From: Bacteroidales bacterium
GTDB lineage: Bacteria > Bacteroidota > Bacteroidia > Bacteroidales > UBA932
Direction of reading: 5' to 3'
Assembly (NCBI GenBank): GCA_017534745.1
Contig: JAFXVX010000017.1
Span: 109,836-173,835, forward strand
Length of the DNA: 64,000 nucleotides
Of this stretch, positions 1,291 through 6,778 are shown one piece after another (position 1 is the stretch's first letter; the number at the start of each line of letters is the position of its first letter). The notes beneath the pieces are model-generated. The model was not told the DNA's origin. It did no database searches and worked only from the letters and a program-made list of their open reading frames with translations. Both the position numbers and the translations under genes were made by a program.

Positions 1291-1327
1291 TCTGTCATTT
1301 CGACCAAGCGAAGCGCGCGGAGAAATC
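1291..1327. repeat. Short interspersed repeat of the 'TGTCATTTCGA..GGAGAAATCT' type
   Basis: The 37-bp stretch between two convergent genes begins CTGTCATTTCGACC and ends CGCGGAGAAATCT. It has the layout of a short intergenic repeat common in bacterial genomes (TGTCATTyCGA, variable core, GGAGAAATCT) and is related in form to the elements found inside feoB in this window. It overlaps the last base of the APH-RapZ stop codon. Confidence 0.5.
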
Positions 1328-2757
1328 TACAGCACTTTTTCGACGTCCAGCTCCCGGTGCTTGAGGGAGACCAGGACGTCGAATTTTTTTGCTATGTGCT
1401 CGGCAAGGTGCTCGGCGCAATAGACTGAGCGGTGCTGGCCGCCGGTGCAGCCGAAGGCCACCTGCATGTGGGTGAACTTGCGCTCGATGAAGCGCTTGAC
1501 GTGGGCATCGACAAGGGGATAGACGTTCCCGAGAAAATCGTTGACGCCGCCGTCGTCTTCAAGGAACTTGATGACTTCGGAGTCGCGGCCGTCGAACTGG
1601 CGGTAGTATTCGAACTTGCCGGGGTTGTTGATGGCCCGGCAGTCGAAGACGAAGCCGCCTCCATTGCCGCTGGTATCGACGGGGATACCCTTCTTGTAAG
1701 CGAAACTGAAGATACTGACTTCCAGCTTCTTATAGTCGGCCGCCTCGTAGAGCTGCGGCATATTGGTGAGAGCCTTGAGCAACTCGTTCAGATACGGATA
1801 CGCCTTGAACGGGCGGCGGAGAAGTTTACGAAGATTGTCGATGGCGAAAGGGACGCTGCCGATGAAATACGGCTTCTTCTCGAAGTAGCCCCGGAAGCCG
1901 TATGCGCCGAGGACCTGGAGGGTGCGGAACAGGACGAAAAGTCTGTAACGCTCCCGGAAGGCCGCCTCGTCGAGGTCGGGCTCATAACGGCGGAGCGAGG
2001 CCAGGTAGGCGTTCTCGAGCTCTTCCCGGAGGTCGTCCGGATAGCGGGAACGGGCCTGCCAGACAAAGGATGCGAGGTCGTAGTGGACCGGGCCGCGGCG
2101 ACCTCCCTGGAAGTCGATGAACCAGGGTTCACCGTCCTTTATCATCACGTTCCTCGACTGAAAGTCGCGGTACATGAAGGTCTGACCGTCCTCTTTCAGC
2201 AGGTCCCGGCGGAGACGGTCGAAGTCGTCTTCGAGCGCCGCCTCGTTGAACTCCAGTCCGGTAGCCTTGAGGAAACAGTATTTGAAGTAGTTGAGGTCGA
2301 AACTGACTGTCCGCCCGTCGAAGGCCTCCTCCGGGTAGCATACGCTCCAGTCGAAGCCGTCACGGCAGGCGTACTGTATATCGGGAAGGGAGGCGACGAC
2401 CTTGCAAAGGAGGGCGCGCTCAGAGGGGCTGTAGGAGCCCCGCTCGCGCCCCTGAGCGATGGCATCGAAAAGGAGCTCTTCGCCAAGATCCTCCTGGAGA
2501 TAGCGCATACTGTCCGCGCTGACCGCCAGCACCTTAGGCACGCGAATCCCTTTCGCCGCGAAGTGCTTATCAAGCGCAAAAAACGCCTTGTTCTCCTCCA
2601 GGTCTCCCCCGATGACACCTATGACTGTGCCGTTTACGCCGGGGCCGCCGCAGAAGATCCGGAAGTACCGCCTGTTGCTTCCGGAACCCTTGATCTGCTC
2701 CACCGCCGCGGCCTCGTGCCCCGCGTATTCCCTGTAAAGTTCCCTGAGTTTTTCCAT
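1327..2757 (-). CDS. Aminoglycoside-phosphotransferase-like kinase fused to a RapZ C-terminal domain, 476 aa
   Basis: Residues 1-330 resemble the APH/AmgK kinase fold: a Ser/Gly-rich N-lobe (GSGSNRRYFRI), the catalytic loop MYRDFQSRNVM (in place of HxDxxxxN) and the Mg-binding IDFQGGRRGPVHYDLAS motif. Residues 340-476 match the C-terminal domain of RapZ: FSFAYKKGIP, a DCRAINNP motif, then FGCTGGQHRSVY and LKHREL. In E. coli RapZ a P-loop domain precedes this domain, and RapZ binds small RNAs and RNase E. Here a sugar-kinase-like domain replaces the P-loop half, so the substrate may be a cell-wall amino sugar; that is inference from AmgK. The gene is isolated, with a 570-bp non-coding stretch upstream holding the 110-bp palindrome. 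Confidence 0.85.
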   Translation of the reverse strand: MEKLRELYREYAGHEAAAVEQIKGSGSNRRYFRIFCGGPGVNGTVIGVIGGDLEENKAFFALDKHFAAKGIRVPKVLAVSADSMRYLQEDLGEELLFDAIAQGRERGSYSPSERALLCKVVASLPDIQYACRDGFDWSVCYPEEAFDGRTVSFDLNYFKYCFLKATGLEFNEAALEDDFDRLRRDLLKEDGQTFMYRDFQSRNVMIKDGEPWFIDFQGGRRGPVHYDLASFVWQARSRYPDDLREELENAYLASLRRYEPDLDEAAFRERYRLFVLFRTLQVLGAYGFRGYFEKKPYFIGSVPFAIDNLRKLLRRPFKAYPYLNELLKALTNMPQLYEAADYKKLEVSIFSFAYKKGIPVDTSGNGGGFVFDCRAINNPGKFEYYRQFDGRDSEVIKFLEDDGGVNDFLGNVYPLVDAHVKRFIERKFTHMQVAFGCTGGQHRSVYCAEHLAEHIAKKFDVLVSLKHRELDVEKVL

Positions 2758-3515: not shown

Positions 3516-6500
3516 TCAGAGGGGGAAGAACAGGAGGGCGAGGCGGTAGGTGGCGAAGGCGAGGAGCCAGGCGACGGCGATGGTGTAGATGGCGCAGAGG
3601 ATGGCCCAGCGCCAGCCGCCGGTCTCGTTCTTGATGGCGACGAACGTTGCGACGCACGGGAAGTAGAGCAGCACGAACACCATGAACGCCAGGGCGGCGG
3701 CCGGCGACACCGACTGCTTCAGCGCTGCCTGCAGCGCCGTGTCGGAGGAGTCCTCAGGCGACTGGCCTGCGAGAGATTCCGGGTCGGAGCCCGGAATGAC
3801 GGAGGCGTCAAGTGGAGTGGCGGCAACGGCTGCTGCGTCACCGGAGTCGGCGGAGAGAGATTCCGGGTCGGCGCCCGGAATGACGGAAGTGTCGGAGCCC
3901 GGAATGACGGAGGCTGCGGTCGAGGAAGAGGAAGCAACTGCGGAGTCGGCTGAGAGAGATTCCTCGGCTTCGCTCGGAATGACAGAGGAATCGGTGCTCG
4001 GCGTAGCGGAGGGAGTGGAGGGCGAGACGGAAGGAGCGGAGGCTGGGGCGCCCTGGGAGTACATGACGCCCATGGTGCTGACGACGAGCTCCTTGGCGCC
4101 GACGCCGGCGAGGAGGCCGACGTCCATGCGCCAGTCGAAGCCCAGCGGGTCGAGCACCGGCGCCACGGCCCTGCCGAGCCGCCCGATCAGCGACTGCTCC
4201 TGCTGGACGACCGTCAGGGAGTCTATGCGGGCGTCGAGCGCCGCGAGAGATTCCGGGTCGGGGCCTGGAATGACGGAGGAGGAAGCGGAGATGCCCTCGC
4301 TGGCGTTCGGCATAACAGGGGCATCGGCGGCGAGAGATTCCGGGGCGGGGCCCGGAATGACGGAGGAGGCAGGAGCTGGAATGACGGCAGCGGAGGAGGA
4401 AGCGGAGATGCCCTCGCTGGCGTTCGGCATGACAGGGGCATCGGCGGTGAGAGATTCCGGGTCGGGGCCTGGAATGACGGAGGAGGCGGGAGCTGGAATG
4501 ACGGCAGCGGAGGAGGAAGCGGAGATGCACTCGCTGGCGTTCGGCATGACAGGGGCATCGGCGGCGAGAGATTCCGGGTCGGGGCCCGGAATGACGGAGG
4601 AGGCGGGAGCTGGAATGACGGCAGCGGAGGAGGAAGCGGAGATGCCCTCGCTGGCGTTCGGCATGACAGGGGCATCGGCGGTGAGAGATTCCGGGGCGGG
4701 GCCCGGAATGACAGAGGAATCGGCGGCGAGGGCGGGAGAGGTAGCGAGGAGGGTGGCACGGGCTGATTTGGCGGCGGTGAGGTCGGGGTTGCGGGGAAAG
4801 TAGCCGAGGAACCAGATGAGGACGGAGAATAGGAGGATGGTGGTGGCCATTTTCTCGAGGTACTGGCGGCCCTTCTCCCAGGTGTGGCGGCCGATGGCTT
4901 TGCCGGTGGGCATCCTGTAGGGCGGGAGCTCCATCACGAAGGGCAGGTCGTCGTCCTTGACGAAGCGGGCAAGGACCATTGCGGACAGGATGGCGAGGAC
5001 GATACCGAGAAGATATATTCCGAGAAGCACCAGGGCGGCATGCCGGGGGAAGAAGGCCCCGGCGATCAGCACGAAGACCGGCAGGCGGCCGGCGCAGGAC
5101 ATGAACGGGATGATAGCTATCGTGATAAGGCGCGACTTACGGCTTTCGATCGAACGGGTTGCCATTATGGCCGGCACGTTGCAGCCGAAACCCATGACCA
5201 TGGGGATGAACGACTTGCCGTGGAGGCCGATGCGGTGCATCAGCTTGTCCACAATGAACGCCGCGCGTGCCATATATCCGCTGTCCTCCATCAGGGAGAT
5301 GAAGAAATAGAGGATCATAATATTCGGTAGGAACACCAGCACGCTGCCGACGCCGGCGATGATCCCGTCCACAACGAGATCCTTGAACCAGCCTTCCTTC
5401 ATGAAACTTCCGACGAAATCGCCGAACTTCCCGACCAGCCAGTCTATCCAGTCCATCGGATACTGCCCCACGGCGAACGTCGCCCAGAATACTATATACA
5501 ATATAGCCACGAATATCGGGAACGCCGCCCAGCGATTGGTAACGACGGCGTCGAGCTTGTCGGTGAGTGAAAGCCTCGGGCGCTCCTCGAGGTGTTTTTC
5601 ATACACCTCGGCGAGCGCGCCCCGGATGAACGCGTACTTGGCATCGACGATGGCCGACTCGGGGCTGCTCCCGAGCAGGCCCTCGATGCGGGCGTTCTCC
5701 TCCCGCCTCGCCTCCGCAAGCTCCTCCGCGACAGGCAGCTCGCCGAGGACCGCCTCTATGTCCCTGTCGCCCTCAAGGTACTTGATGGCGAGGTAGCGGG
5801 TCGAATAGCGGAAACGGATGTTTTCATCCTTGCGGATAATCTTCTTCAGCCGCTCAATACTCTTCTCGATCTCAGGCCCGTGGTTGATGTGGATATGGCG
5901 AGCGAGAGACGGGTCGGACTTCTCATAGACCTTTATCACGGTGTCGAGAAGTTCGGGGATGCCGCGGCCGTCGCGGCTGACCGTAGGGCAGACCGGGACG
6001 CCGAGAAGATACCCCAGCTGCCTGAGGTCCACCTTGTCGCCCTTCGACTCGAGTTCGTCGTACATATTGAGCGCCATCACCGTGCGCAGGTTCATATCGA
6101 TGACCTGCGTCGTGAGATAGAGGTTTCGCTCGATATTCGAAGCGTCCACGACGTTGATGACAACGTCCGGGGTCTTCTCTATGAGGTTTTTACGGACATA
6201 CAGCTCCTCGGGGCTGTAGGCCGAGAGGGAATACGTCCCGGGGAGATCCACGAAAATGAACTTGTAGCCGCCATAATCAAAACGGCCCTCCTTGGCGTCC
6301 ACCGTCACACCGCTGTAGTTGCCGACGTGCTCATGTGCGCCGGAGGCGATGTTGAACAGGGATGTCTTGCCGCAGTTGGGGTTGCCGACGAGGGCGACAC
6401 GTATCTCGTGTCCCCTCTCCTCGGCGATGTGGCTGAGAGCAGTCTCCAGCCTCTCGTCCTCAGACATATCGGCGGGAAGCGACTGGAGGTGCACGTCGGA

Positions 6501-6746
6501 AAGGAGCGCCTCCCGCGCATCCTCGTCAGTGACGACCTCTATGGAAGCCGCTTCCTCCCTCCGGAGCGAGACCTTGTATCCGAGAATCTCGTACTCGACG
6601 GGATCCTTCAGGGGAGCGTTCAGGACAACCCGAACCTCCTTCCCCTTGATAAACCCCATCTCTATCAGCCTCTTACGAAAGCTCCCGTGACCACCCACGC
6701 GGACGATCACTCCCCTTTTCCCAGTCTCGAGCTCAGATAAAAACAT
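3516..6746 (-). CDS. feoB: Fused FeoA-FeoB ferrous iron transporter with repeat-derived in-frame insertions, 1076 aa
   Basis: Imports Fe(II) across the inner membrane. Residues 1-75 form a FeoA SH3-like domain (MFLSELETGKRGVIVRVGG). From about residue 115 comes the G domain: GNPNCGKTS (P-loop), DLPGTYSLSAYSPEE (G3), NMYDE (G4). The membrane part includes GFGCNVPAIMATR and FMSCAGRLPVF, both conserved Gate residues. The start at 6746 aligns with FeoA. The fused family is usually near 830 residues. The surplus lies in two loops, about residues 652-844 (after LGYFPRNPDL) and 895-1008 (after GVMYSQ), made of repeated SSVIPGPDPESL, PVMPNASEGIS and SVIPSEAEESL units encoded by short palindromic DNA repeats. 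The core resumes correctly after each (EQSLIGRLGRAV; ALAFMVFVLLYFPC), so the gene looks intact. Divergent from the porin-imelysin operon. Confidence 0.93.
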   Translation of the reverse strand: MFLSELETGKRGVIVRVGGHGSFRKRLIEMGFIKGKEVRVVLNAPLKDPVEYEILGYKVSLRREEAASIEVVTDEDAREALLSDVHLQSLPADMSEDERLETALSHIAEERGHEIRVALVGNPNCGKTSLFNIASGAHEHVGNYSGVTVDAKEGRFDYGGYKFIFVDLPGTYSLSAYSPEELYVRKNLIEKTPDVVINVVDASNIERNLYLTTQVIDMNLRTVMALNMYDELESKGDKVDLRQLGYLLGVPVCPTVSRDGRGIPELLDTVIKVYEKSDPSLARHIHINHGPEIEKSIERLKKIIRKDENIRFRYSTRYLAIKYLEGDRDIEAVLGELPVAEELAEARREENARIEGLLGSSPESAIVDAKYAFIRGALAEVYEKHLEERPRLSLTDKLDAVVTNRWAAFPIFVAILYIVFWATFAVGQYPMDWIDWLVGKFGDFVGSFMKEGWFKDLVVDGIIAGVGSVLVFLPNIMILYFFISLMEDSGYMARAAFIVDKLMHRIGLHGKSFIPMVMGFGCNVPAIMATRSIESRKSRLITIAIIPFMSCAGRLPVFVLIAGAFFPRHAALVLLGIYLLGIVLAILSAMVLARFVKDDDLPFVMELPPYRMPTGKAIGRHTWEKGRQYLEKMATTILLFSVLIWFLGYFPRNPDLTAAKSARATLLATSPALAADSSVIPGPAPESLTADAPVMPNASEGISASSSAAVIPAPASSVIPGPDPESLAADAPVMPNASECISASSSAAVIPAPASSVIPGPDPESLTADAPVMPNASEGISASSSAAVIPAPASSVIPGPAPESLAADAPVMPNASEGISASSSVIPGPDPESLAALDARIDSLTVVQQEQSLIGRLGRAVAPVLDPLGFDWRMDVGLLAGVGAKELVVSTMGVMYSQGAPASAPSVSPSTPSATPSTDSSVIPSEAEESLSADSAVASSSSTAASVIPGSDTSVIPGADPESLSADSGDAAAVAATPLDASVIPGSDPESLAGQSPEDSSDTALQAALKQSVSPAAALAFMVFVLLYFPCVATFVAIKNETGGWRWAILCAIYTIAVAWLLAFATYRLALLFFPL
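3771..3983. repeat. Interspersed short palindromic repeats inside feoB, second loop
   Basis: Copies of a 30-bp unit beginning GAGAGATTCCGGG and ending CCCGGAATGAC lie at 3771-3800 and 3855-3884, with a fragment near 3890-3908. A related copy with a different centre (TTCCTCGGCTTCGCTCGGAA) is at 3954-3983. ATTCCGGG and CCCGGAAT form a perfect 8-bp stem. On the feoB strand they read in frame as VIPGSDPESL, VIPGADPESL and VIPSEAEESL. None of the copies introduces a stop or frameshift. Confidence 0.8.
4245..4712. repeat. 117-bp tandem repeat array inside feoB, first loop
   Basis: The unit starting GAGAGATTCCGGG begins at 4245, 4332, 4449, 4566 and 4683. Three intervals are exactly 117 bp (39 codons); the first is 87 bp because 30 bp between two CGGAGGAGG direct repeats is missing. 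Each unit contains a palindromic repeat (ATTCCGGG/CCCGGAAT) and a second one, GAGATGCCCTCGCTGG followed by CGTTCGGCATGAC. Both 117 and 87 are multiples of three, so length changes keep the reading frame. On the feoB strand a unit reads as 39 residues beginning SSVIPGPDPESLA. Confidence 0.9.
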
Positions 6747-6757
6747 TCGTGTTCCGG

Positions 6758-6778
6758 TATTTTTGCGACGCAAAAATA
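6758..6778 (-). promoter_or_regulatory. Perfect palindrome over the feoAB promoter, candidate operator
   Basis: Arms TATTTTTGCG (6758-6767) and CGCAAAAATA (6769-6778) flank a single A: a perfect 10-1-10 inverted repeat. On the minus strand the right arm supplies TATTTTTG, a good TAnnTTTG box, with ATTG 20 nt further upstream. The start codon of feoAB follows at 6746. A palindrome lying on the -7 box of an iron-uptake gene suggests a repressor site, perhaps for a Fur- or DtxR-type regulator; the identity of the regulator is not shown. Confidence 0.5.

Follow-up and report, generated by a model that had tools for sequence, protein, structure and literature searches.

The question raised by this locus is why a transporter gene, feoB, encodes two loops that are far longer than those of related proteins and that read as repeated copies of a few short peptides. 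The gene was found in the window, which is the whole 64,000-nucleotide stretch of DNA that was analysed, and its product is a FeoA-FeoB fusion, in which the Pfam domains FeoA, FeoB_N, FeoB_Cyto, Gate and FeoB_C are found (Table 1). Loop 1 is 163 residues longer than that of the relative L095, and loop 2 exceeds its counterparts in L090, L095 and G378, which have 10–14 residues, by 89 to 93. Both loops together have gained about 252–256 residues, close to the figure of about 250 guessed in a sequence-only reading of the window. Between the loops stand 51 core residues (amino acids 857–907), and the ancestral ends of loop 1 are still discernible (RNPDLTAAKSARATLLATSP ... LDARIDSLTVVQQEQ in the host protein vs RNKELIAAKAEKEALATEVPPTLDARIDSLSLVQQEN in L095). 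The loops carry net charges of −16 and −15, and the added sequence is acidic, Ala/Ser/Pro-rich and probably disordered. An AlphaFold2 model based on a 65-sequence alignment (mean pLDDT 67, pTM 0.59; pLDDT of at least 70 at 660 of the 1085 residues) has two long stretches with pLDDT below 50, residues 685–834 and 912–1008, which are the inserts, and four short ones of 6 to 14 residues outside them. The low pLDDT of the inserts suggests disorder, of which it is an indication and not a proof.

The same sequence-only reading had placed short palindromic repeats, inserted in frame, at 3720–4790, which agrees with the positions of the two loops, and it had described the loops as translated copies of these repeats. 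This description was borne out: 12 full units occur in the loops together with four 5' half units, and all have the coding-strand orientation and codon phase 0. Seven of the full units are of the VIPGPDPESL type and four of the VMPNASEGIS type, and one reads VIPSEAEESL. A covariance model trained on 33 copies, six of them from this feoB, recovers the same 12 full units with E-values from 4e-11 to 6e-5. Furthermore, a scan for complementary stems identified 11 sites in the window, ten in feoB and one at 1294, against a mean of 0.45 sites in 20 mononucleotide shuffles of the window. The covariance model also scores a weaker copy between two convergent ORFs (Table 1), a usual location for a REP.

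Table 1. Features of the feoB locus and of its repeat units (positions in the window)
Feature	Position	Strand	Details
feoB (FeoA-FeoB fusion)	3516..6773	-	1085 aa; TTG start as listed, alternative start nearby possible
feoB loop 1, aa 661-856	4206..4793	-	196 aa vs 33 aa in L095; 9 full + 3 half units
feoB loop 2, aa 908-1010	3744..4052	-	103 aa; 3 full units + 1 half unit
Tandem array, 117-bp unit	4274..4718	-	3.8 copies, 96% matches; much of loop 1
Full unit, ATTCCGGG stem, VIPGSDPESL	3773..3800	-	stem scan + covariance model
Full unit, ATTCCGGG stem, VIPGADPESL	3857..3884	-	stem scan + covariance model
5' half unit, GTCATTCC without 3' arm	3901..3908	-	
Full unit, ATTCCGAGCG type, VIPSEAEESL	3956..3983	-	stem scan + covariance model
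Full unit, VIPGPDPESL	4247..4274	-	stem scan + covariance model
Full unit, ATGCC type, GTTATG variant, VMPNASEGIS	4288..4316	-	covariance model
Full unit, VIPGPAPESL	4334..4361	-	stem scan + covariance model
5' half unit	4378..4385	-	
Full unit, ATGCC type, VMPNASEGIS	4405..4433	-	stem scan + covariance model
Full unit, VIPGPDPESL	4451..4478	-	stem scan + covariance model
5' half unit	4495..4502	-	
Full unit, ATGCC type with stem mismatch, VMPNASECIS	4522..4550	-	covariance model
Full unit, VIPGPDPESL	4568..4595	-	stem scan + covariance model
5' half unit	4612..4619	-	
Full unit, ATGCC type, VMPNASEGIS	4639..4667	-	stem scan + covariance model
Full unit, VIPGPAPESL	4685..4712	-	stem scan + covariance model
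Superfamily copy (ATTTCGACC type) between two convergent ORFs	1292..1331	+	17.9 bits, E 0.009

Equally long loops were not found in the FeoB proteins of relatives. The segment between the motifs HTWEK and FPC is 412 residues long in the host protein and 124–217 (median 134) in 107 distinct relatives. These segments were taken from 138 loci (L061–L199 less L170), the rest being duplicates or loci without such an ORF; an ORF with both motifs was absent from 7 of 110 loci (L110, L117, L130, L134, L172, L181 and L188). Of 590 loci from named relatives 80 were kept; most belong to MAGs of uncultured Bacteroidales, often from the rumen or other gut sites, and some to Candidatus Cryptobacteroides and Coprenecus, and the window presumably stems from this group. 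The FeoB query matched all 119 sampled genomes of the family, where the weakest matches resemble other GTPases, and a 250-aa part of FeoB matched 279 of 300 genomes of the genus. A pattern search detected no unit copy in the feoB loops of the 107 distinct relatives. Pattern matches in the feoB genes of L071, L173 and L176 fall within the conserved core and are regarded as chance, and the FeoB of L139 (SSSVIPGGADDS), considered as a degenerate copy, was rejected on reading its DNA. The closest FeoB found, that of the genome G378, is 94% identical over 250 aa and has short loops without units; both inserts are therefore taken to be recent.

Some relatives have an enlarged segment as a whole (217 aa in L111 and L178, 198 in L140 and 189 in L150), and the loops of L140, L111 and L150 owe their size to simple sequence rich in Ala/Gly/Asp/Pro, where a search for units found none. 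Thus, FeoB loops tolerate growth in general. It could be argued from this that slippage has expanded a low-complexity, naturally variable linker and that the likeness to REPs is secondary, since the loops vary among relatives, with some unit-free low-complexity expansions, and the 117-bp array is a plain tandem repeat. Slippage probably does explain the tandem part of the feoB array. However, the units form palindromes, and copies lie in other parts of the genome as well, intergenic spaces included, by which slippage as the general explanation is largely refuted; both loops share a unit superfamily, and slippage alone does not create units. As an account of the locus it is highly improbable.

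A misassembled repeat or a decaying feoB pseudogene would be another origin of such loops. The genome is a draft of 21 contigs (completeness 96.83, contamination 2.36) and probably a MAG, and tandem repeats are error-prone and can be misassembled. Nevertheless, the frame runs for 1085 codons without a stop, and the core is conserved in an alignment with 64 relatives, which entered it out of 75 usable FeoB loci. The 250-aa FeoB query matches the host genome once, and the same elements are present on other contigs and in genes of other species. An artefact or a dying gene is therefore extremely unlikely.

The element itself is a hairpin, GTCATNCC...GGNATCTC, of 26–41 bp and typically of about 27 bp. 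The palindromes had been assigned to three families, all of which share both of these ends and differ in stem and loop. In the 33 aligned copies the outer five stem pairs form without exception, AT first, as was largely set by the search pattern; because this pattern fixed most of the outer letters, the third and the inner pairs are the sole informative ones. The third pair is UA in 27 copies, GC in 3, CG in 2 and AU in 1, with changes on both sides, and the three inner pairs form in 9/33, 11/33 and 14/33 copies. C or T precedes GTC in the tag of 32 of the 33 copies and A in that of L024 (the GTC itself being in the pattern), while the 3' end reads CT, often CTC (CT being part of the pattern). 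By hand count, the hairpin loop spans 5 bases in ATTCCGGG units of 26 bp and 6 in the feoB ones, and it is longer in imperfect units. Opposed pairs of units occur in several genes, and all 12 feoB units share one orientation. Since the units share both ends and one stem pair varies on both sides, the repeats fit a single superfamily, which appears closest to the CGTC-tagged REPs described in PMC3733652. Separate origins of the three families were ruled out by the shared ends.

CGTC REPs are defined in that paper by an unpaired 5' end reading CGTC (or TGTC, CCTC), a stem of 8–9 bp with AT first, a loop of 4–5 bases and a short unpaired 3' tail, most but not all of these tails fitting CCA (PMC3733652). 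The same paper describes them as dispersed, predominantly as head-to-head dimers, and as showing no association with transposase genes, and classes two Rickettsia elements, RPE-4 and RPE-6, among them (PMC3733652). The present units resemble them in the CGTC/TGTC tag, the AT start of the stem, the short dispersed hairpins and the absence of a flanking transposase, here at five Y1_Tnp loci; in both, some copies are found inside genes, including ones for replication and repair, and Bacteroidetes are among the phyla listed (PMC3733652). They appear to differ in the tail, which is CT or CTC here and not the CCA of most CGTC REPs in that account (PMC3733652), and in the stem, where most aligned units have five outer pairs and then mismatches; a clear phase bias, described below, is a further difference. 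Furthermore, the feoB inserts, of about 163 and 90 aa including units and spacers, exceed the range of 43–82 aa that Di Nocera et al. (2013; PMC3733652) give for larger clusters encoded by REPs.

Other known systems share some of these properties. Neisseria dRS3 (CGTC-1) belongs to the same hairpin superfamily according to PMC3733652, but is found mostly in large clusters, whereas the present units are dispersed and often in genes. GTAG REPs with RAYT are likewise short, tagged, dispersed hairpins that can lie in genes; the tag here is CGTC/TGTC and not GTAG, and no full unit stands beside any of the five host Y1_Tnp genes tested. The palindromic elements (RPEs) of Rickettsia are also inserted in frame in conserved protein genes, although that genus belongs to another phylum and is confined to obligate intracellular life, and the units here have 26–41 bp against the 105–146 bp given for RPEs in PMC2229807. 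Palindromes lying in frame inside genes have been described in Rickettsia and in other bacteria, and a guanylate kinase bearing an RPE is reported to be active with a changed substrate affinity (PMC2229807). In the open-access literature, none of the papers listed reports such repeats in FeoB or in Bacteroidales, and no paper mentioning the encoded peptides was found. Matches to the repeat DNA words were unrelated by title, among the matches listed, and those to feoB with intragenic palindromes were unrelated by title and start of abstract. The earlier remark that no described feoB case was known holds for the open-access papers listed, but elements of this kind inside genes were already known. 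The feoB case extends a recognised type of event to a further lineage, at unusual density and size.

The units are not confined to feoB. A loose pattern gave 54 hits in the host genome, 10 of them in feoB, against 3 in a reversed control, and of the 44 hits elsewhere one (L025) is unlike a unit. When 150 candidates per genome were scored with the covariance model (E up to 0.05), at least 123 copies, those of feoB included, were found on many contigs of the host genome. Among the candidates scored, G124 has 103 matches, G121 72, G378 48 and G022 3, and there were none among the 150 scored in each of G131, G096 and G058. A stricter pattern hits 29 of 61 genomes, host included, with 0 to 51 hits each; within the genus it hits 21 of 37, again with the host. 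The sequence-only reading had seen in the locus a transporter colonised by repeats, and feoB does carry them, but it is not special in this respect: repeat insertion in genes is genome-wide. Neither of the two findings that this reading had named as refuting it, relatives with loops of similar length and absence of the units from the rest of the genome, was obtained.

With 40 stretches taken from the host genome, and with repeats by context left out of the count, the placing of 88 host copies at 60 loci outside feoB was examined; two of these copies (L007 522 and L039 1367) look like chance palindromes. With genes called by a simple codon-usage script trained on 20 window ORFs, 57 copies lie inside predicted genes, 20 are intergenic and 11 are at gene ends. 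Among copies sampled from the best-scoring model hits, 22 were internal, 19 intergenic and 8 at gene ends in G124 (n=49); the corresponding figures for G378 (n=26) were 19, 4 and 3. The coding fraction of the 60 loci is 0.881, and the internal share of the host copies is below it; genes are therefore under-hit, yet far from avoided. At L023, L033, L037, L045, L206 and L212, copies overlap or abut the ends of predicted genes, and such copies may supply last codons or an altered start.

Pfam domains were found in 18 of 20 unit-bearing ORFs scanned, two having none, and the proteins were named from these domains. They comprise a UDP-glucose dehydrogenase, an epimerase, an altronate dehydratase, IF-2, an OstA-like protein, gyrase/topoisomerase IV A, DnaX, an endonuclease/phosphatase joined to a galactokinase, an MFS transporter, an HHH protein, a MiaB-like radical SAM protein, a nucleotidyl transferase, a glycosyltransferase, an amylase, PriA, the ATP synthase gamma subunit, a DUF1015 protein and shikimate dehydrogenase. 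In the joined gene (L219 2385–4592), a repeat-interrupted endonuclease/exonuclease/phosphatase domain continues into a galactokinase-like GHMP kinase in a single frame. The N-terminal part of IF-2 (L205 1–2664) alternates EPEP-rich stretches with translated repeats, VISSEVEKSP.

Comparison with related genomes shows how the same sites differ in their content. The host aroE has two unit clusters and aligns to that of G378 in three pieces; the second cluster (host about aa 206–258) is missing in G378, and at the first, by reading, G378 has a shorter, altered unit. The two host clusters are near-identical, including a few flanking bases, which argues for copying within the gene. A single AtpG loop holds different units in three genomes, VMPSDSEGIS in the host, GTCATTTCGAG..GAGAAATCT in G378 and VIPSETKES in G121, where the covariance model match lies inside atpG. 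In altronate dehydratase and UDP-glucose dehydrogenase (named by flanking residues), the sites are common to host and G378 and the details differ.

The best explanation overall, to which we give a probability of roughly 0.85, is that CGTC-type REPs, mobile or recombining, have been tolerated in disordered linkers and amplified by tandem duplication. Hairpins of about 27 bp would have multiplied in this Bacteroidales lineage and entered genes as well as intergenic spaces. Where a copy left the frame open and fell in a flexible surface linker, it would have been tolerated and would by now belong to the open frame. Each of two naturally variable loops of feoB presumably received at least one REP, and a 117-bp tandem duplication with exchange between copies would have brought the insert to some 250 residues once the lineage had split from G378, the closest relative found; this is the order of events that we infer. 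On our reading of the sequences, some flanking DNA is included in the repeated stretches of feoB and aroE, as would be expected from duplication or recombination rather than from a transposon whose ends are fixed. The comparisons yielded no insertion of a single unit whose borders are exact to the base, the loops being too divergent even against G378. The mobile or recombining repeat system proposed from the sequence is supported, its mobility being deduced from copy number and empty sites, while its supposed choice of tolerant loops is better read as the survival of insertions in tolerant loops. As the insert is acidic, Ala/Ser/Pro-rich and probably disordered, FeoB, which is presumably expressed, most likely still works, with the insert as a near-neutral passenger.

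Units inside genes are read in a clearly preferred phase. Half of the host's 57 gene-internal copies are read in the one phase that gives VIPSEAEES. Sense phases 0/1/2 of internal copies number 29/4/3 in the host, 13/0/1 in G378 and 9/3/1 in G124, and antisense phases 0/1/2 number 1/12/8, 0/4/1 and 0/2/7, respectively. A chi-square test of the sense phases, on copies that are not independent, gave p values of 1e-8 (host), 1e-5 (G378) and 0.02 (G124). The 26-bp unit has a stop in one phase, and the common 27-bp units are open in all three sense phases; the bias is therefore for the most part not due to stop codons. In most unit types, phase 0 encodes acidic VIPSEAEES-like peptides, and the remaining phases encode peptides that are basic or of Cys/His type. 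The bias is most simply read as purifying selection on composition.

The inserted peptides might instead be adaptive, the acidic phase being selected as a disordered linker and REPs acting as linker donors. Such a preference would account for a phase bias that persists although the common units have no stop in any sense phase, for the net charges of the feoB loops and for the occupation of the same AtpG loop by different units in host, G378 and G121. It is unlikely, given that purifying avoidance of basic and Cys-containing phases gives the same bias, that tandem and inherited copies were counted although they are not independent, and that 57 internal copies of 88 against a coding fraction of 0.881 indicate net selection against insertion.

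Selfish repeats as a source of protein segments have been argued mainly from Rickettsia. The tolerated REPs described here belong to an unrelated lineage, whose members have from none to over 100 copies and in which filled and empty loops are found in related species. FeoB, AtpG, AroE, IF-2 and DnaX are suitable test proteins, as gain, loss, reading phase and fitness cost would be measurable in them by comparison, which makes this lineage well suited to testing how selfish DNA is built into functional proteins. Annotators should be aware that acidic stretches of the VIPSEAEES type in proteins of this group probably represent translated REPs and not domains.

The spread of the units could be due to a RAYT-like Y1 transposase of the L055 type that mobilises the REPs in trans, and the distribution of such proteins offers some grounds for this. 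L055-type proteins, taken at a best E below 1e-30, are present in 12 of the 13 genus genomes with at least 7 pattern hits vs 10 of the 24 with fewer (37 genomes in all; Fisher p 0.004 at this threshold). Any Y1_Tnp match is present in 19 of 21 genomes with hits vs 8 of 16 without (p 0.009; Spearman 0.36, p 0.03). However, thresholds of 1, 3, 5, 7 and 10 were tried for L055, with p values of 0.107, 0.003, 0.004, 0.004 and 0.028, and these association statistics ignore phylogeny and genome completeness. For a second Y1 type (L057) the trend is weaker (p 0.05 to 0.29), and G096 has many such Y1 proteins (14 and 10 matches) and no units among the candidates scored. Moreover, no full unit was found within about 1.5 kb on each side of any of five Y1_Tnp genes of the host, whose genome has four further Y1-like genes; at one of the five loci (L056) there is one weak partial unit match (13 bits, E 0.057). 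The association of Y1 transposases with the units is a lead only, and mobilisation in trans is doubtful.

A wider proposal makes the REPs of this genus a standing source of linkers, in which selection favours the VIPSEAEES phase for its soluble acidic spacer, permissive loops are reoccupied by units that differ between species, a diffuse pool of Y1 transposases moves the units, and conserved proteins such as FeoB, AtpG and AroE are being remodelled now; we consider it rather unlikely. The RAYT-like Y1 proteins (L057, L055 and many relatives) are about 300 aa long, numerous and diverse in the genus, with up to 14 matches per genome, unit-free genomes included, and may serve other repeat families.
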